Source of the DNA: an uncultured Spongiibacteraceae bacterium
GTDB taxonomy: Bacteria; Pseudomonadota; Gammaproteobacteria; Pseudomonadales; CAMLJR01
Assembly: GCA_946480345.1 (NCBI GenBank)
Contig: CAMLJR010000034.1
Location: 1-22,195, forward strand
Direction: 5' to 3'
Length of the DNA: 22,195 bases
Shown piece by piece: positions 1 through 8,103 of the stretch. A program made the position numbers and the translations under genes. The first letter of the stretch is position 1; the number at the start of each line of letters is the position of its first letter. The notes below the pieces were generated by a model that ran no database searches, was not told the origin of the DNA, and worked only from the letters and a program-made list of their open reading frames with translations.

Positions 1-1374
1 GCCGGCACCATTCGCGATATCACCGAACACAAGTTATACGAACAAAAACTCTACCAACTCGCCTATCGGGACGATCTCACTAATCTGCCTAATCGCAAAG
101 CATTGCTCGCCGAACTCGAACGACGTTTACAGGAGGCTGCCGAGCATCCGTTCGCGTTGATGCTGATCAATCTCGATCGCTTCAAAAATATTAACGATTC
201 ACTCGGGCACAGTGCCGGCGATCATCTGTTGCGCATGGCAGGGGAGCGTTTACAGCACGTGCTGGGCGAAAATGTTTTCCTCGCACGTTTAAGCGGCGAT
301 GAATTCGCCGCGCTTGCCGCCGTCGATAATTGCGAGTCGCTAGCCGAGACAGCGCTGGCATGCTTCCAGGCGCCGTTCAATCTGAGCGACGGCGATATTT
401 TTATCAGCGGCTCGATCGGCATTGCGCTGTGTCCGCAATCCAGTAGCGACCTCAACGAATTGTTGAATTTCGCCGGTATCGCCCAACAGCGCGCGAAAGC
501 CAGCGGTCGTGCCACACTGCAATTATTCGAGCCCAGCATGATGTTGCCGAATCGACAACGTCTGGCGCTGGAAAGTGATCTGCGTGTGGCACTGACACGA
601 AATGAATTTGAATTGTTTTATCAGGGCAAATTCAATCTCGCGAACGGTGAATTGATCGGCGCGGAAGTGTTATTGCGCTGGCATTCGCCGCAGCGCGGCA
701 TGGTGATGCCCGGCGATTTTATTCCGATGCTCGAGGAAACCGGCCTCATCGTCGCGGTGGGTGAGTGGATATTGCATGCCGCATGTCGCCAAGTGCAGCA
801 ATGGCAACGAACGATGGGACGCTGGTTATCCGTTGCAGTGAATGTATCCACAGTTCAGCTTTCCAACCGGCACTTCGCCGCGAAAGCTTCAGCGATTTTG
901 CGTGAATATGCGATACCGCCCGGTGTCATCGAACTTGAAATTACCGAATCCGCGTTGATTGCGGATATCGAGCACGGTGCATTTACCATCGAGGCGTTAA
1001 AGCAGGCGGGTTTCAATATCGCACTCGATGATTTCGGTACTGGTTATTCGAGTCTCGGCTACTTGCGTCGATTTACACCGACTACATTAAAAATCGATCG
1101 GAGTTTTGTCGCTGATCTGGCGGTGGTCGAAAACGACGTTGAAATCGTCGCCGGTATTTTGCAATTGGCCCATGCACTGAAAATCGAAGTCGTCGCCGAG
1201 GGGATCGAGCGCACCGAGCAATTAGCGATGCTCACCGATCTGGGGTGCGAATATGGTCAGGGGTTCTTGTTCTGCAAGCCGTTGCCGATCGAGCAGTTCG
1301 AACTGATTGCACCGAAGCTGTTCACCGGCGCTGTGACCGACATCGAGACGCGCCGGCGCGCCGCTTCGGATTGA
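1..1374 (+). CDS. GGDEF-EAL c-di-GMP protein, 5' end outside window
   Basis: The reading frame is open from base 1, so the N-terminus is missing. The first residues (GTIRDITEHKLYEQKL) are the typical end of a PAS domain, followed directly by the GGDEF start AYRDDLTNLPNR. The cyclase signature is SGDEF (292-306) instead of GGDEF, and no RxxD inhibitory site precedes it. The EAL domain has EVL (664-672) for EAL but keeps the catalytic set: the VNVS asparagine, EITES, DDFGTGYSS (from 1027), the LKID lysine and AEGIE. I infer a c-di-GMP phosphodiesterase; cyclase activity is uncertain. It converges on rimK, with 74 bases between the stop codons. In Pseudomonas an EAL protein (RimA) accompanies RimB and RimK, so the neighbourhood may be functional. 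An internal TTG at 103 lies inside the GGDEF domain and is not the real start. Confidence 0.93.
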   Translation, partial: AGTIRDITEHKLYEQKLYQLAYRDDLTNLPNRKALLAELERRLQEAAEHPFALMLINLDRFKNINDSLGHSAGDHLLRMAGERLQHVLGENVFLARLSGDEFAALAAVDNCESLAETALACFQAPFNLSDGDIFISGSIGIALCPQSSSDLNELLNFAGIAQQRAKASGRATLQLFEPSMMLPNRQRLALESDLRVALTRNEFELFYQGKFNLANGELIGAEVLLRWHSPQRGMVMPGDFIPMLEETGLIVAVGEWILHAACRQVQQWQRTMGRWLSVAVNVSTVQLSNRHFAAKASAILREYAIPPGVIELEITESALIADIEHGAFTIEALKQAGFNIALDDFGTGYSSLGYLRRFTPTTLKIDRSFVADLAVVENDVEIVAGILQLAHALKIEVVAEGIERTEQLAMLTDLGCEYGQGFLFCKPLPIEQFELIAPKLFTGAVTDIETRRRAASD

Positions 1375-1448: not shown

Positions 1449-2324
1449 TTAGTGCTGGGTGTGTTCGAGGTGTTCGATGATTTTTGCGGCGACGTCGACA
1501 CCACACGTGCGTTCGATGCCTTCGAGCCCCGGTGAGGAATTAACTTCGAGCACGAGCGGCCCGCGGGGCGAACGTAAAATATCGACGCCCGCCACCGAAA
1601 GTCCCAACGTGTGCGCGGCTTTTAACGCCGCAATGCGTTCGGCTTCGGACAAATTCGTTGCGCGCGCACTACCGCCGCGGTGCAGGTTCGCGCGGAATTC
1701 ACCCGCCGCTGCCGTGCGTTCCATCGATGCGATGACGCGATCGCCGACCACGAGACAGCGCAGGTCCGAGCCGCCGACATCGCGCACGAATTCCTGCACA
1801 AGAAAATCGGCTTTCAATTCGCGAAACGCACCGATAACGCTTTCCGCCGCTTGAGTCGTTTCGGCCAGCACGACGCCGCGTCCTTGTGTGCCTTCGAGCA
1901 ATTTGACAATTAACGGTGCGCCGCCGACCAGGCTGATCAGTTCGCGGCTGTCTTCGATATCGCGCCCGAACCCGGTGCGCGGTAATTGCATCCCGACCTG
2001 CGCGAGCAATTGCAATGCACAAAATTTATCGCGCGAGCGGCTGAGCGCGACGGAGCCAGTCAAGCAGTACACCTGCATCATTTCGAATTGGCGAATGACG
2101 GCCATGCCGTAATGCGTAATCGATGCGCCGATGCGCGGAATCACCGCATCGAAACCGTTGAGTTTTTTACCTTGATACCGCACCGTCGGTTGTGCGGCGG
2201 CGATGTCCATATAGCATTTCAGCGTATCGACCACGCGCACGCGATGGCCGCGTTCGCGCGCCGCCTCGACCAGACGTCGCGTCGAATATAAGCGCGAATC
2301 GCGCGATAAGATCGCCAGCTTCAT
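1449..2324 (-). CDS. rimK: RimK, ribosomal protein S6--L-glutamate ligase
   Basis: This 291-residue ATP-grasp ligase matches E. coli RimK in length and along its whole sequence. It starts [14 protein letters not shown], has the ATP-binding stretch [19 protein letters not shown] (about 134-152), the substrate-side FRANLHRGG (about 210-218) and the metal-binding end [13 protein letters not shown] (about 259-271). RimK adds glutamate residues to the C-terminus of ribosomal protein S6 (RpsF) using ATP; in Pseudomonas it alters ribosome function and translation and responds to c-di-GMP. The ATG overlaps the stop of the upstream protease gene by four bases (ATGA, 2321-2324), indicating coupled translation. 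It is the last gene of the leftward string. No clear terminator follows its stop before the convergent GGDEF-EAL gene. Confidence 0.96.
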
Positions 2325-2767
2325 GGTTTACCCAACACGAATGATTGTCCGCAATCGACTACATAGCGATGGCGCAACGCATTGCGCCCGATCAGCATTC
2401 GATAGCGCAGCGGTTCGCGATTCGCCAGCGTGACCTCTACCGGAAACTCGTTATCGCCAATCCGCAGCATGGTCGCAATCACGCAGCGCTGTTCGGAGCG
2501 ACCGCTCGAATCGCGTACATTGCGTTGATCGAGCAGCGGCGCTTCGCAATGTACGGCTTCATCGTGAGCGGCATTATCGCGACGAATATTCGGATGAATA
2601 CCGAATCGTACCCAGGCGGCGTTATCGATGCTGAACGGCTCCACATAAAACGCATGCAGCGCACAAGTGGTGGCACCGCTGTCGATTTTTGCACGCAAGG
2701 GTTTTGTTAAAAAGTTAGGCAACGCAACCCATTCGCGCCAGCCGACGGTAATTCGTTCAGGCGTCAT
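2321..2767 (-). CDS. rimB: RimB-type retropepsin-like zinc protease
   Basis: I chose the ATG at 2765-2767, giving 148 residues ([18 protein letters not shown]...). It overlaps the mscS stop by 11 bases. An earlier in-frame ATG at 2803 would add 12 residues deep inside mscS and is less likely. The fold signature is [16 protein letters not shown] (about 24-39) with the D-S/T-G-A motif of retropepsin-like enzymes, and the C-terminal part [16 protein letters not shown] also fits. This is the family annotated as ATP-dependent zinc protease / Zn_protease (PF05618). In Pseudomonas fluorescens RimB is encoded with RimK and counteracts or trims its glutamate tails on S6. The four-base overlap with rimK makes the same role likely here. 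Confidence 0.88.
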
Positions 2768-3632
2768 GTTTGCTATCACCCGCGTCGCGCGCGATTGAGA
2801 CATTGCGAGACGCTAAATTGCTGCGTGGTGCCATCGAGAAATCGGCGTTGGCAATATGCAAGGTGCGCGTCGGAAATGGGAATTCGATACCGGCCGCATC
2901 GAATGCGACTTTGATTTCCTCATGAAGCGTATCGCGTATGTCGGCAAAATTTTCGCGCGCACTCCATATCGAGAATTGAATATCGACGGACGATTCGCCG
3001 AATCCCTGTAAATTGACTAACGGGCGCGGCTCTTCCAGACAAAACGGATTGTTCTCGGCAACTCGCAATAATATTTCGCGTGCTTTTGCGATGTTCGAGT
3101 TGTAACTGATCGATACCTTGATGTCGGCGCGGCGAATCGGGAACCGACTCAGATTGACCACATCGGTTTTTATGATTGTCTCGTTGGGAATGCGGACGAA
3201 GCGATTATCGAACGTGCGCAGCTTCACCGACAGCATATCGACCGACAACACTTCACCGGTGTGATTACCCGCCTGAATAATATCGCCGACAATAAAACTG
3301 CGTTCGCCGATCACGAACAACCCGCTGATAATATTTGCCGCCGATGTTTGTGCGGCGAAACCGACCGCGACAGAAAAAATACCGGCTGCTCCAAGCACGA
3401 CGCTCAGTTTGAATCCCAGTTGATGCAGTGCCGATGCAATAAACACCGTGAGAATCAGCCAGCCGCCCAGGCGCTGCAAAAAACGCGGCAGATGACTGAG
3501 CGTGCCGCGTCGCACCAGTCGCACATAAAGGCGCGAAAAAACCAGGCCGACGATCAATAGAACTGCAGCGCGCGATGCTTCCTGTAAGTTGATTGCACCT
3601 AAGACGCTCTGTACGGTAGTGGCGGCGCTCAT
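2757..3632 (-). CDS. mscS: MscS-family small-conductance mechanosensitive channel
   Basis: At 291 residues it is close to E. coli MscS (286). Three membrane helices are visible (about 20-38, 57-77, 79-105). The third is the Gly/Ala-rich pore helix LGAAGIFSVAVGFAAQTS, followed by the beta domain (GLFVIGERSFIVGDII to VRIPNETIIKTDVVNLS) and the C-terminal alpha/beta vestibule ending in FPFPTRTLH. Such channels open under membrane tension and release solutes during hypo-osmotic shock. Upstream of the ATG a GGAAA ribosome site can be read. The gene lies between an unassigned protein and the rimB/rimK pair, and its stop overlaps the rimB start. An osmotic link to S6 modification is not established; position alone suggests co-expression. 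Confidence 0.94.
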   Translation of the reverse strand: MSAATTVQSVLGAINLQEASRAAVLLIVGLVFSRLYVRLVRRGTLSHLPRFLQRLGGWLILTVFIASALHQLGFKLSVVLGAAGIFSVAVGFAAQTSAANIISGLFVIGERSFIVGDIIQAGNHTGEVLSVDMLSVKLRTFDNRFVRIPNETIIKTDVVNLSRFPIRRADIKVSISYNSNIAKAREILLRVAENNPFCLEEPRPLVNLQGFGESSVDIQFSIWSARENFADIRDTLHEEIKVAFDAAGIEFPFPTRTLHIANADFSMAPRSNLASRNVSIARDAGDSKHDA

Positions 3633-3675
3633 TGATCTATTTCCATGCGGTTAATTTTCATCACGATTAAGCCTT

Positions 3676-3717
3676 AGCAGTTATGCAAACAACAAAAGCA
3701 GTTATGCAAACAACAAA
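3676..3717. repeat. Exact 21-bp tandem duplication at a stop codon
   Basis: Bases 3676-3696 and 3697-3717 are identical and directly adjacent (each begins AGCAGTTATGC). The right-hand copy contains the final codons LLFA and the TAA stop of the leftward 253-residue gene. The left-hand copy repeats those codons and the stop just downstream. Because the unit is seven codons long, the second copy supplies a backup stop. This looks like replication slippage rather than a regulatory element. Confidence 0.9.
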
Positions 3718-4463
3718 TCCACGGCACGCTCGAACACGCCTCCGCGAATAGGTCGGCGTGGGGGTGCAATCAGCACCGATTGGCTCGGTGGCTTGTTATC
3801 GATGTGCAAATTCGCGATGGCTAAATGGGTTTCGCGCAATACGCGCAATGCAGAGGTCCAGAAACGCTGGCCATCGCAATACAACGTTAAATGCGGCACT
3901 GGCACATTGATGCGATCGAGTCGCACGTTATCGATGCCCTGATTATCGATAGTGATCGGCGTGATTGCGCGAAACGGACTGTATTGCACATTGTCGGAGT
4001 TCAGCAGCGCGCGCGTCTGACTTGCATAACACAATTCGCCATGCCGCGTGTTTGCGCCGAACCAAGTATCCGACAAGCGCACGGTGGGCAGTTCAGCGAG
4101 TGGCACTTCACCTGCCGATACGCGCGCCCATAACACCGTGCTGATGAATAACGTTGTCTGTTGTTTCGGCAGTAATTCGGTCGGCATCATCGGACGTGCA
4201 ACCACGGGACGATTGGCGAGTTGCGGCGTGATTTGAATCGTGTTCGAACTGCCGCTCAATAAAAAGCGCAGCGATTGTGCTTCGCCTTCGATGCGTTGAT
4301 TATCTTCAATACGATCGTAGTGATAATCGAGCCAGCATTCGTCTCGCGTATTGCGAATACTTAACGACAGGCGTTCCAGTTGTGCTTGCGTAGCGGCGCC
4401 ATTCGCCAATTCGTTCCATGGCGCCGGCACGGATCTAAGCGTTGGAGTTTGAGCAGTTTCCAT
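3702..4463 (-). CDS. Uncharacterised 253-residue protein, possibly DUF432-like
   Basis: I do not recognise a proven function. The protein is soluble in appearance: no signal peptide, no membrane helix, no metal-binding cluster. It has many short beta-like stretches (for example LTLYCDGQRFWTSALRVL and ETHLAIANLHIDN). Its size and its place directly upstream of mscS fit the DUF432 family, which as I recall often neighbours MscS genes; this assignment comes from memory and is tentative. The motif-like part is PVVARPMMPTELLPKQQTTLFISTVLW in the middle, where DUF432-type proteins describe a pressure or 'ruler' segment only by homology. It lies 69 bases before mscS and 99 bases after the QEGLA gene. 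The last codons sit in an exact 21-base tandem duplication (3676-3717). Confidence 0.75.
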   Translation of the reverse strand: METAQTPTLRSVPAPWNELANGAATQAQLERLSLSIRNTRDECWLDYHYDRIEDNQRIEGEAQSLRFLLSGSSNTIQITPQLANRPVVARPMMPTELLPKQQTTLFISTVLWARVSAGEVPLAELPTVRLSDTWFGANTRHGELCYASQTRALLNSDNVQYSPFRAITPITIDNQGIDNVRLDRINVPVPHLTLYCDGQRFWTSALRVLRETHLAIANLHIDNKPPSQSVLIAPPRRPIRGGVFERAVDLLFA

Positions 4464-4529
4464 AAAGTTCGATCACAAAAAAGATGCCGCGATTGTACGC
4501 GGTTGAGTTGAGAGCCTGGTCGTATTGCT

Positions 4530-4570
4530 CGTCGTCGAGTAAAAAATTGTTGCGTCGTCGAGTCAAAAAA
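4530..4570. repeat. Near-exact direct repeat at the QEGLA gene stop
   Basis: CGTCGTCGAGTAAAAAA (4530-4546) and CGTCGTCGAGTCAAAAAA (4553-4570) differ by one base insertion and are separated by six bases. The right copy holds the TGA stop (4563-4565) of the leftward QEGLA-motif gene. The layout parallels the 21-bp duplication at the stop of the next gene in the same string. Confidence 0.8.
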
Positions 4571-5846
4571 CCGGGCTGTAATCGCGTTCGAGTTGCGAGA
4601 AATCGAGCGCGCTCGCAAAGCGTGTGAAACTCAGGCACGCCGATAAGCCGGTTAGATCTTCGAATAACGGTGGCAGGTAACGCGGCGGCACAATCGCGCC
4701 TTCGGCCACCAGTTCCGCAACGGTTTTCATATCGTCGATCGTCGTCTTGCCGCAGAACAGCAGATGAATACGTTCGGGAGTGCCGCGTGCAATGGCGAGC
4801 CGCACATAGTTGTACGCGAGCACGAAACCTTTGATGTAGCTGAGATCCTTGGTGAACGGACCGTCGCTGGCGGTACTGCCGCGAAAAACCCGCGTCGCCA
4901 ATTGCCATGCATCATCGGCGCTGTGATTGTGATCGAGCAAATAGCGATACAGCTCGATGAAATCCGCGCCTTGCTCGACCAGCGCTACCGCCTGCACACG
5001 CCGCGTTAAACGACTTAATCGGTGCGGTGTCGAATGCATCGACAACGTTTCCGTCATCACCGCCAAACCTTCCTGCGTGACCGTCGCCGAGGGTGGGCCC
5101 TTCGCAAGAAACGTGCAAATCGGTTGCTGCGCGCCGTTCAGCGTCGTGCCGATATGCACCCAGCCTTCATGCGCTTCGAGCACACGCAGATCGCTTTCGC
5201 TGAACGTCGCTTCGCGACGCAATTTAATCGTATCGCCACCTGCCGCAGCATCGGCAACGATGCCGTCGCTTAAACGCGCACGAATGCCGCAGCCGGGAAA
5301 TTGTTTACGCAAACGCTGGTTCAACCATTTCACAGCGGTCGGCGCATCGAAATTCTTTTCGTTCGGACGAATCGCCGGGCTGTGTTCAATTAATTGCTGC
5401 AACACCTGCTGCAGGCGCGCGGCCAAATCGGCAGGGGTGGGATCGCCGGCATGAAATACATCCGAACTTGACCCATACAATTCCTGGCTGAGCGCCGAAA
5501 ATTCTGTGGTGCCGCGTGCTTCGAGCATATCGACGACAAGCAGATATTCGCGACAGGTTCGGCGCAGCCACGCACCGACCGGGTTGAGCTGACCAAGTTG
5601 CCGCATGATATCGCGCTCGATCGCATGCAATTCCTGACGCTTGCTGTCGATGTCGAAGCGCAGCGGCCGTTGCGCGCGATAATAATCGGCATCGACTGCC
5701 GGTAAGTGCGAGGCATTAGCGGCGAAGAATTTTTGTTTCAGCGAATCGTCCCACTGAATCGCATCGAGAATACGAATCGGCTGCTGCGCTGTGACAAGCC
5801 GCCGCGACAGCGCTGCGATGACCGCGTGATAATGGTTTTCGCTCAT
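4563..5846 (-). CDS. QEGLA-motif (DUF1704, MATCAP-like) putative metallo-carboxypeptidase
   Basis: This 427-residue protein carries the two signatures of the family annotated as 'flavohemoglobin expression-modulating QEGLA motif protein' (DUF1704). They are HEGWVH (226-231), an HExxxH zinc site, and TQEGLAVMTE with Q258-E259-G260-L261-A262, where the glutamate would be the third ligand. A downstream FTKDLSYIKGF (331-341) is also family-like. The eukaryotic members (MATCAP) are zinc carboxypeptidases that remove the C-terminal tyrosine of tubulin. For the bacterial members the substrate is unknown to me. No signal peptide or membrane helix is seen, so it should be cytoplasmic. Its ATG overlaps the mlaC stop by one base (TAATG, 5844-5848). 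Its position in a string that ends in rimB-rimK suggests that it too acts on protein C-termini; that is inference. Confidence 0.9.
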   Translation of the reverse strand: MSENHYHAVIAALSRRLVTAQQPIRILDAIQWDDSLKQKFFAANASHLPAVDADYYRAQRPLRFDIDSKRQELHAIERDIMRQLGQLNPVGAWLRRTCREYLLVVDMLEARGTTEFSALSQELYGSSSDVFHAGDPTPADLAARLQQVLQQLIEHSPAIRPNEKNFDAPTAVKWLNQRLRKQFPGCGIRARLSDGIVADAAAGGDTIKLRREATFSESDLRVLEAHEGWVHIGTTLNGAQQPICTFLAKGPPSATVTQEGLAVMTETLSMHSTPHRLSRLTRRVQAVALVEQGADFIELYRYLLDHNHSADDAWQLATRVFRGSTASDGPFTKDLSYIKGFVLAYNYVRLAIARGTPERIHLLFCGKTTIDDMKTVAELVAEGAIVPPRYLPPLFEDLTGLSACLSFTRFASALDFSQLERDYSPVF

Positions 5847-6514
5847 TATTTTTTCTTCGCGGATGCCGGCTGCTTATCCTGCATTTCTTTCGTCGTATCG
5901 ACTTCGTTGATGGTATTCAGCGCCGCATCCATTCCCTGTTGTTCCCACACGGGTTTCATCGCGTTAAACAGCGTCAAACTGACGACGATGCCATCGACTG
6001 CCATATCGTTGATCTGCCATGAGCCATTGGCATTGCCCAGCGAAAAGTCCACTTGAATGGTTTGACCATTCGGGCGACGAATGCGTGTTTTCGCCGTGCT
6101 CTTCGCGCCTTCCTCGTTAACGCTGACCACGCTTAATGTGTCGCCGGAATAACTCGACAGCGCGACAGCGTAGGTGCGCACGAGCGAATTCATCACGCGC
6201 TGCTGTGCGTCGTTCTGTTTGCCGGCTTGCACGATCTCACGCCAGTAATGACGAAATACTCGTTGCGTCAATCGTTGCTGATCGATATTCGGAACAATCT
6301 CATTGCGGATTAATTGTTCGAGCGCAGCGCGATCCTCGATGCGATGCGCCTTGTAGAGTTTGTCGAGCTCGGTGGATACGCGCTCGATCAATCGTTTCAT
6401 CACCGCATCGGAGTTATCCGCCGCCAGGGCCGTGTTCGAGATGGCTATGGTTATCAACGCGAAAATCATTAACCAGGGCCGACCGATTTGCCGAAAAAAA
6501 TATTTCATCATCAT
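5846..6514 (-). CDS. mlaC: MlaC-like periplasmic phospholipid-binding protein
   Basis: I prefer the start in the ATG triplet run at 6506-6514, because a GAGAG ribosome site (complement of 6523-6527) lies eight bases before 6514. An upstream ATG at 6529 has no such site. From KYFFRQIGRPWLM a basic-then-hydrophobic signal peptide ends at about TALA|AD. The mature part follows MlaC/Ttg2D: RIEDRAALEQLIRNEIVPNIDQQRLTQRV, then HYWREIV, then YSGDTLSVVSV and a C-terminal WQINDMAVDGIVVSLTLF. MlaC shuttles phospholipids across the periplasm between the MlaA-porin complex and the MlaFEDB ABC system. The other mla genes are absent here, so this is an orphan copy. A lysine-rich tail (ASAKKK) closes the protein. 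It follows fumC by 23 bases. Confidence 0.88.
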   Translation of the reverse strand: MMMKYFFRQIGRPWLMIFALITIAISNTALAADNSDAVMKRLIERVSTELDKLYKAHRIEDRAALEQLIRNEIVPNIDQQRLTQRVFRHYWREIVQAGKQNDAQQRVMNSLVRTYAVALSSYSGDTLSVVSVNEEGAKSTAKTRIRRPNGQTIQVDFSLGNANGSWQINDMAVDGIVVSLTLFNAMKPVWEQQGMDAALNTINEVDTTKEMQDKQPASAKKK

Positions 6515-6537
6515 GACGTTTACTCTCATCGCTGAAG

Positions 6538-7965
6538 TTATTGGTTTTTGCCATCGGATTTCTTTGCATCCGGTATGCCACCATCGCTTATGCCACCTTC
6601 AGTCAGGCGAAGCGGATCAAGCAATGCATCGAGCTCATTTTTTTTCATTTTACTTAGGCGTTCGGCAATTTCCGCAATCGGTTTCTGTTCGGCCAGCGCC
6701 TGCTTGACGATATCCGCCGCGAGTTCGTAACCAACCGATGGCGCCAGTGCAGTAGCGAGAATGGGATTGCGCTGTGCGCGTTCGGCCAGTGCCGTCCGGT
6801 TCACACTGAAATCCTCGATGCCGCCGCTGCCGGCAAGCGCGTTACAGATATTGGTCAATAGCGCGACCATCTGCAGCAGATTATCGGCCACCAGCGGCAG
6901 CATCACATTTAATTGAAAATTGCCCGATTGCCCCGCCAGTGCGATCGCGGCATCGAAACCGACACATTGCGTCGCGGCCATCGCACACGCTTCCGGAATT
7001 ACCGGGTTCACCTTGCCCGGCATTATGCTGCTGCCCGGCTGCAACGCGGCGAGCTGGATTTCGCCGAGCCCGTTATGCGGGCCGCTGTTCATCCAGCGCA
7101 AATCATTGCAGATCTTGATGAGTGCGAGAGCCAGCACGCGCAATTGGCCGGAAAATTCGACCGCGCTATCGATACTGCTCATGCGCTCGAAACGGTTTCG
7201 ACACGGTTGCAGCGGCAAGCCGGTTGCCTCGCTCAAGCGCGCAATAACGCGCGGCGCAAACTCGGGGTGAGTATTAATGCCCGTGCCGACAGCGGTGCCG
7301 CCAAGCGGTAATTCAGCAAGACGTCGGGCGCTATCGCTTAAGCGCTCCTCCGCATTCAGAACTTGCTGACGCCATCCGGACAGTTCCTGATCGAACCGAA
7401 TCGGCATCGCATCCATTAAATGCGTGCGTCCGGTTTTCACGACATCGTGCAGTTCGCGCATCCGTGTCTCGATCATCGCCGCGAGTTTTTGCAAAGCCGG
7501 TTGTAACGATGCGCCCCATTCGCGCAATACGCTCAGTTGCAACGTCGTTGGAATGACATCGTTGCTGCTTTGACCGGCATTAACGTGATCGTTGGGATGC
7601 ACGCGCACCGCGTCGATCGCGCTGGCGCGATGAGCCAGCACTTCATTCATATTCATGTTGGTGCTGGTGCCGGAGCCGGTTTGAAAAACATCGATAGGAA
7701 ATTGCTCGGCGTGGTCACCCGCAATCACTTCGTTGGCAGCTTTGATGATCGCGTGTGCAGTTGCGACATCGATAATTCCGAGGTTTTCGTTGATTTCCGC
7801 AGCGGCACGCTTGATATGGGCGAGAGTCTGAATAAAGGCTGTAGTAAAGCGGCGGTCGCTGAGCTTGAAGTTATCGATCGCGCGTTGCGTCTGCGCGCCA
7901 TACAACGCATCGTCCGGTACAGCGACATCGCCGAGGCTGTCGTGTTCGATTCGCGTAGCACCCAT
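6538..7965 (-). CDS. fumC: Class II fumarate hydratase (FumC)
   Basis: The 475-residue form starts MGATRIEHDSLGDVAVP at 7965, where AGGAG (complement of 7975-7979) sits nine bases upstream; an in-frame ATG at 8034 is much less well placed. Family marks are QTGSGTSTNMNMNEV (95-109), NDHVNAGQSSND (125-136), KTGRTHLMDAMPI (177-189, with the active-site histidine) and the fumarase/aspartase signature GSSIMPGKVNP (311-321, catalytic Ser312). It hydrates fumarate to malate in the TCA cycle without an iron-sulfur cluster. The C-terminus has an extra Gly/Lys/Asp-rich tail (GGISDGGIPDAKKSDGKNQ) beyond the usual end. It heads the leftward string and is divergent from the diguanylate cyclase gene, with 138 bases between the starts. 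Confidence 0.96.
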   Translation of the reverse strand: MGATRIEHDSLGDVAVPDDALYGAQTQRAIDNFKLSDRRFTTAFIQTLAHIKRAAAEINENLGIIDVATAHAIIKAANEVIAGDHAEQFPIDVFQTGSGTSTNMNMNEVLAHRASAIDAVRVHPNDHVNAGQSSNDVIPTTLQLSVLREWGASLQPALQKLAAMIETRMRELHDVVKTGRTHLMDAMPIRFDQELSGWRQQVLNAEERLSDSARRLAELPLGGTAVGTGINTHPEFAPRVIARLSEATGLPLQPCRNRFERMSSIDSAVEFSGQLRVLALALIKICNDLRWMNSGPHNGLGEIQLAALQPGSSIMPGKVNPVIPEACAMAATQCVGFDAAIALAGQSGNFQLNVMLPLVADNLLQMVALLTNICNALAGSGGIEDFSVNRTALAERAQRNPILATALAPSVGYELAADIVKQALAEQKPIAEIAERLSKMKKNELDALLDPLRLTEGGISDGGIPDAKKSDGKNQ

Positions 7966-8103
7966 AATCGTCAGCTCCTGTCTGTCGCTCGGTTTTTGAG
8001 CATAACATCGAACACTTCTCATTACAGATAACACTTTTCTTCAGTCGTGCATGAATCTTGCTCGTTATACTAAATTCAAAATAGAAGACCGCGGAGCGCG
8101 TCA

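Follow-up and report, generated by a model that had tools for sequence, protein, structure and literature searches.

Gene string of the window

We analysed a 22,195-nucleotide stretch of DNA from an uncultured Spongiibacteraceae bacterium (assembly GCA_946480345.1, contig CAMLJR010000034.1, positions 1 to 22,195), hereafter the window, in which a putative zinc carboxypeptidase of the MATCAP/QEGLA family (DUF1704) is encoded on the same strand as rimK, the gene of an S6-type alpha-L-glutamate ligase, and a rimB-type protease gene. Based on open reading frames (ORFs) and profile scans of the window proteins, the order on the minus strand is lyase, MlaC-like protein, MATCAP/QEGLA, DUF432-like protein, MscS, RimB-type protease and RimK.

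MATCAP (4563..5846, minus strand) passes PF08014 (431.3 vs. 27 bits) and TIGR02421 (358 vs. 338.65 bits) and carries the motifs HEGWVH and QEGLA. The residues H, E, W, V and H of HE[GIV]WVH and the entire QEGLA are invariant in 19 aligned sequences, that of the window included, and H, E, H and QEGLA are also invariant in 34 aligned sequences. HExxxH and the third-ligand Glu in an E[EQ]GLA-type motif line up with 7z5g, and the predicted fold matches the human MATCAP fold, its best match in the PDB. Thus, profile scores and predicted fold agree with the family assignment made in an initial annotation of this DNA, and the comparison of the zinc site with MATCAP that it proposed came out in favor of the assignment. 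Human MATCAP1 and MATCAP2 (TMCP1 and TMCP2; KIAA0895L and KIAA0895) share the Pfam family name, HExxxH with an E[EQ]GLA-type motif and the fold, but identity to the window protein is ~19-21% and the latter's substrate is only putative. As reported in PMC10499314, TMCP1 and TMCP2 take off residues at the C-terminus, Glu among them, and make polyglutamate chains shorter, and a Tetrahymena homologue is a deglutamylase. The bacterial family model is named “flavohemoglobin expression-modulating QEGLA motif protein,” which describes an effect on expression and not a reaction.

The ATP-grasp ligase RimK (1449..2324, minus strand) passes the equivalog NF007764 with 418.8 bits against a cut-off of 331 and also matches PF08443 and PF18030. 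The retropepsin-like aspartic protease (2321..2803, minus strand, with an alternative ATG start near 2766) passes PF05618 (116 vs. 27 bits) and has its DSG motif within KIDSGATT. It stays under the cut-off of the RimB equivalog NF052261 (121.3 vs. 200 bits), the top scorer among the four retropepsin models listed for it, and judged by these scores it is RimB-type, not the RimB equivalog. Further upstream are the genes for an MscS-type small mechanosensitive channel (2757..3632, minus strand), with PF00924 (69.6 bits) and PF21082 (56.2 bits) both above cut-off, and for the DUF432-like protein of 253 amino acids (aa; 3702..4463, minus strand), which has no Pfam match of its own and 115 homologues of which bear the precomputed label PF04254. 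The model of this protein has a mean predicted local distance difference test (pLDDT) score of 91.3 and is all-beta.

The genes rimK and rimB overlap by 4 nucleotides, rimB and mscS overlap too, and the start of MATCAP overlaps with the stop of mlaC at 5846. Gaps of 99 bp and ~70 bp lie between MATCAP and the DUF432-like gene and between the latter and mscS, respectively. The first gap contains a weak terminator-like hairpin followed by a T run (4487..4502, minus strand; CCGCG-N6-CGCGG). The region holds 13 terminator-like sites, which is no clear excess over shuffles (8.8; standard deviation, 3.4), and folding of this gap is unremarkable (z-score, -0.39). The initial annotation had placed rimK, a rimB-type protease gene and a QEGLA gene on one strand, with overlaps at rimB-rimK and mscS-rimB, and ORFs and profile scans agree with it on the strand, as do the ORF coordinates on both overlaps. 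Its description of one gene string holds for the order of the genes but less so for their continuity, given the DUF432-like gene that it left unlisted, the two gaps, and a MATCAP whose own overlap is with mlaC.

The string continues upstream of MATCAP with the MlaC-like gene (5846..6529, minus strand; PF05494, 78.1 bits), whose 3' end forms the overlap, and a class II fumarase/aspartase-like lyase gene (6538..8034, minus strand; PF00206, 314.8 bits). At the other end, a GGDEF-EAL cyclic di-GMP gene (103-1374, plus strand) runs toward rimK in convergent orientation. Its product was tried as RimA and rejected (78.9 vs. the RimA model cut-off of 430), and rimA was not found in the window's minus-strand string.

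The window shares the rimB-rimK pair and its families with the Pseudomonas rimABK and rimBK loci described in PMC11957791 and PMC10092738, with rimB directly before rimK and overlapping it. It differs in adding mscS and the DUF432-like gene upstream and MATCAP further upstream, and in having no rimA in the string, an EAL gene that some Pseudomonas rim loci include. Gene contexts of rimK are described as variable (PMC10092738), and “mechanosensitive” is absent as a word from the main texts of both papers. A retropepsin and ATP-grasp pair is also found in Pseudomonas RloABC, where, as described in PMC12239564, the Rlo retropepsins matter, with ATP-grasp RloC, under hypo-osmotic stress. In contrast to the window, RloABC involves a secreted protease and an inactive transglutaminase, with no MATCAP in the locus as that paper describes it.

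Conservation of gene order and the DUF432-like/MscS pair

Neighborhoods were compared for the best 80 of at least 417 confirmed MATCAP relatives in genome_contigs, many of whose loci are short. The order MATCAP, DUF432-like, MscS, RimB and RimK recurs in L001, a locus of the gammaproteobacterial metagenome-assembled genome G001, at 75/48/56/51/70% identity, and by this sequence comparison we take the five-gene order to exceed chance. When the best 80 loci were scanned with profiles, six turned out to contain an ATP-grasp or RimB-type gene: L001, L046 (RimK 9 kb off), L056 and L065 (RimB-type), and L067 and L080 (RLAN-type ATP-grasp). The upstream side of MATCAP differs, with mlaC in the window and a MarR-like gene in G001; mlaC was not found in the G001 locus, where the DUF432-like, MscS, RimB and RimK side is retained. 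Judged from their sequence, further genes upstream of MATCAP in G001 resemble those of ectoine synthesis. Protein-cluster homologues of MATCAP, the DUF432-like protein and RimB suggest more cases of this neighborhood in the same clade; a few of these homologues bear the name Spongiibacteraceae. Clustering of neighbors, which covered all but two of the 80 loci, gave genes that, judged from their sequence, resemble M15-type peptidase and LD-transpeptidase genes as common neighbors in Methylococcales-rich MATCAP loci.

The DUF432-like protein was found in 18 of the 194 genomes searched from the order of G001, and mscS is directly downstream of its gene in all 18 (loci L226-L242 and L122). RimB and RimK are close to this pair in 7/18, in tight strings in G065, G097, G150, G194 and G001, ~3 kb on in G090, and divergent in G038, while MATCAP is close to it in 1/18, G001; several of the loci read around these genes end at contig ends. 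Within this sample, the DUF432-like gene thus never occurs without mscS beside it, and several genomes have rim genes joined to the pair. Because of these proportions (18/18, 7/18 and 1/18), we regard the pair as the core and MATCAP as a further, clade-specific neighbor of the DUF432-like/MscS/rim string. The DUF432-like protein is likely a partner of MscS, and MscS a channel within rim loci.

Co-occurrence of MATCAP and RimK

The order sample comprised 244 genomes of G001's order (55 with MATCAP, 151 with RimK over the cut-off and 187 with PF05618), and the phylum sample comprised 398 genomes (47 with MATCAP and 148 with RimK over the cut-off). The main count takes MATCAP of at least 375 bits and sets apart the genomes below that score (13/55 in the order and 16/47 in the phylum), whose MATCAPs are mostly long, fused frames in the order sample. 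RimK is present in 42/42 order genomes with MATCAP of at least 375 bits, compared to 105/189 without MATCAP, and genomes of at least 4 Mb show the same pattern (20/20 vs. 39/63). Hand counts for the phylum sample gave 30/31 with and 111/351 without, 11 of the 31 genomes belonging to the order sample too. Where MATCAP scores below 375 bits, RimK is over the cut-off in 4/13 order genomes and, by hand count, in 7/16 phylum genomes. The initial annotation had named a lack of association between DUF1704 and rimK across genomes as refuting its proposal; the proposal withstood this test, and MATCAP of at least 375 bits does co-occur with RimK above background.

ATP-grasp genes beside MATCAP

Neighborhoods in the order were read in the 55 MATCAP genomes, with all loci in the final ORF pass and several stretches ending at the contigs' ends. 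An ATP-grasp gene lies in the stretch around MATCAP in 23/55 genomes, namely, 11 RLAN-type, 9 glutathione-synthetase-like and 3 RimK-type. All 11 RLAN-type neighbors (one scanned, PF14401) are also near a gene of one cluster, whose scanned member combines GNAT and a C39-like peptidase. The 9 glutathione-synthetase-like neighbors (two scanned) sit at MATCAP frames of 660-690 aa, and in the one long frame that was scanned (G242), an N-formylglutamate-amidohydrolase is fused to MATCAP. L118 (7972-9954, plus strand) has an N-formylglutamate-amidohydrolase domain and then MATCAP, fused, with a glutathione-synthetase-like ATP-grasp gene directly before; frames of 660-690 aa occur in ten more order genomes besides that of L118. 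The MATCAP/ATP-grasp strings of G330 and G350 continue with a RimB/Rlo-type retropepsin match (91-92 bits). L222 (4265-11410, minus strand) and L224 (248-5679, plus strand) each line up MATCAP, ATP-grasp, a retropepsin-type match, a membrane-like protein and one more gene in a single string, which gives the impression that an Rlo-like locus has been attached. Iyer et al. (2009) reportedly surveyed the neighborhoods of ATP-grasp amidoligases and may already list DUF1704.

The RimK-type neighbors in the order are 1.8 kb (G001), 2.8 kb (G008) and 4.7 kb (G178) from MATCAP. The G008 protein carries a TrkA-C domain and scores 327.6 bits, just short of the cut-off of 331, and the G178 neighbor is a RimB–RimK fusion, judged from its length and matches; G042 and G242 have an extra RimK-family gene ~1.35 kb from MATCAP. 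A RimK with C-terminal TrkA-C is seen near MATCAP in L121 (4706-5911, minus strand), with a better-scoring RimK elsewhere in that genome. The phylum set contributed 53 MATCAP places, of which 12 were already in the set, 38 were added and 3 partial ones were left out; contig ends cut some of the added stretches. Here, RimK adjoins MATCAP in two genomes, at 0.3 kb and divergent in G515 and at 4.9 kb in G583, which have two and three RimK gene copies, respectively. Altogether, a RimK-type gene lies within 6 kb of MATCAP of at least 375 bits in 5/62 genomes (42 from the order and 20 further from the phylum), whereas 0.2 would be expected by a rough Poisson calculation in which copy number and genome size were assumed; G001 is the sample center, picked for its gene order, and the count without it is 4/61. 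By a quick tree method, these neighbors occupy four positions in the MATCAP phylogeny: the window with G001, G008, G178, and the G515/G583 clade.

A possible eraser of RimK products

The identities and order of the genes, the MATCAP fold, the DUF432-like/MscS pair and the co-occurrence of MATCAP (at least 375 bits) with RimK all come from sequence or prediction. Building on them, we propose, with a probability of roughly 0.4, that MATCAP is a zinc carboxypeptidase that shortens the glutamate-rich C-termini produced by RimK-type ligases; in this clade, its gene lies beside the S6 system. The window would then be an extended rim locus. According to PMC11957791, RimB belongs to the retropepsin-like endopeptidases, cleaves poly-alpha-glutamate tails and has a stimulatory effect on RimK; the window protease, going by its family, would cut the glutamate tail off. 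MATCAP, as a zinc metallopeptidase, would trim the poly-alpha-glutamate C-terminus residue by residue, acting as an exopeptidase eraser; alternatively, it may recycle free poly-glutamate from RimK and RimB. MscS and its DUF432-like partner probably couple the locus to the osmotic state and the glutamate pool. S6 was searched in 18 genomes and 16 tails were read (the match in G038 was short and false, and no tail was obtained from G010). Thirteen of the 16 end in Glu, including that of the window's relative G001 (...EASGE), and the other three belong to G008 (GEA), G005 (DAA) and G049 (ANN).

The initial annotation had likened writer and eraser to the tubulin tyrosination cycle. The writer-eraser parallel is favored by MATCAP family membership, by RimK co-occurrence and by the 5/62 neighborhoods in four tree places, and it is weakened by the rarity of the neighborhood and the part played by lineage. 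The tyrosination analogy fares less well: since human MATCAPs shorten polyglutamate chains, a RimK product fits better, and polyglutamylation and deglutamylation are the closer eukaryotic parallel in our analysis.

A number of observations weigh against glutamate trimming by MATCAP. The five-gene order is found only in L001 among the best 80 loci, and six of the seven genomes that have DUF432-like, MscS, RimB and RimK together lack a nearby MATCAP. MATCAP is split from the rest of the rim string by 99 bp and the terminator-like site in the window and by 163 bp from the DUF432-like gene in G001, and RimB already supplies an eraser. No RimK was found in the stretch read around MATCAP in 57/62 genomes, and other MATCAPs adjoin RLAN-type or glutathione-synthetase-like ATP-grasps. 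The RimK next to MATCAP is an additional copy in G515, G583 and G008; therefore, MATCAP may have targets other than S6 in these genomes. The single miss in the phylum sample, G589, has a MATCAP of 396 bits and no RimK at the search threshold. Moreover, shared lineage explains part of the MATCAP-RimK association, because two other families also rise with MATCAP: the control TIGR02291, another RimK-like ligase with a frequency similar to that of RimK (over cut-off in 140/244 order genomes), is present in 33/42 genomes with MATCAP of at least 375 bits vs. 95/189 without, and PF05618 is present in 55/55 MATCAP genomes vs. 132/189 without (both hand counts). The P values for co-occurrence are too small, as genomes were taken as independent, without a species tree.

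MATCAP could instead be a general partner of ATP-grasp amino-acid ligases, acting on their peptide products or on the ligases' own protein targets, with adjacency to the S6 system in this clade being secondary. The three ligase types near MATCAP in 23/55 order genomes are consistent with this, as are the G330 and G350 strings with their retropepsin match. However, MATCAP of at least 375 bits tracks RimK more closely than the control ligase, and 32/55 genomes have no ATP-grasp in the stretch read, some of these stretches ending at contig ends, and we consider such a general role somewhat unlikely. The mlaC overlap, together with the separation of MATCAP from the DUF432-like gene by a gap and a terminator-like site, would also suit an independent metallopeptidase with mlaC-linked transcription, for which the rim adjacency is a one-clade accident and the RimK association reflects shared lineage. 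The restriction of the five-gene order to L001, the peptidase-like and transpeptidase-like neighbors in Methylococcales-rich loci and the rise of the control ligase with MATCAP point the same way. Yet the G001 locus, in which no mlaC was found, keeps the DUF432-like, MscS, RimB and RimK side, and RimK-type neighbors are spread over four positions in the MATCAP phylogeny; independence of MATCAP from the rim genes is in our view quite unlikely. Finally, MATCAP might prepare the acceptor by stripping C-terminal residues to expose Glu for RimK, similar to tubulin detyrosination. PMC10499314 reports that human TMCPs take Tyr and subsequently Glu off alpha-tubulin, and three of the 16 S6 tails end other than in Glu, but the other 13, among them that of G001 with the window's gene order, already do so, and acceptor preparation is very improbable.

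Implications for the MATCAP family

It is an unlikely scenario that the first MATCAPs were bacterial enzymes erasing C-terminal poly-glutamate tails written by RimK-type ligases and that eukaryotes took the eraser over for tubulin tails, the window representing one lineage with the writer, the endo-eraser RimB, the exo-eraser MATCAP and an osmotic channel together. RimK is present in nearly every genome with MATCAP of at least 375 bits; together with the repeated ATP-grasp neighborhoods and the deglutamylase activity of the human proteins, this gives the bacterial family a testable substrate. If glutamate trimming by MATCAP is true, the rim system would possess a second eraser, and the erasers of the tubulin code would have bacterial relatives in ribosome modification.

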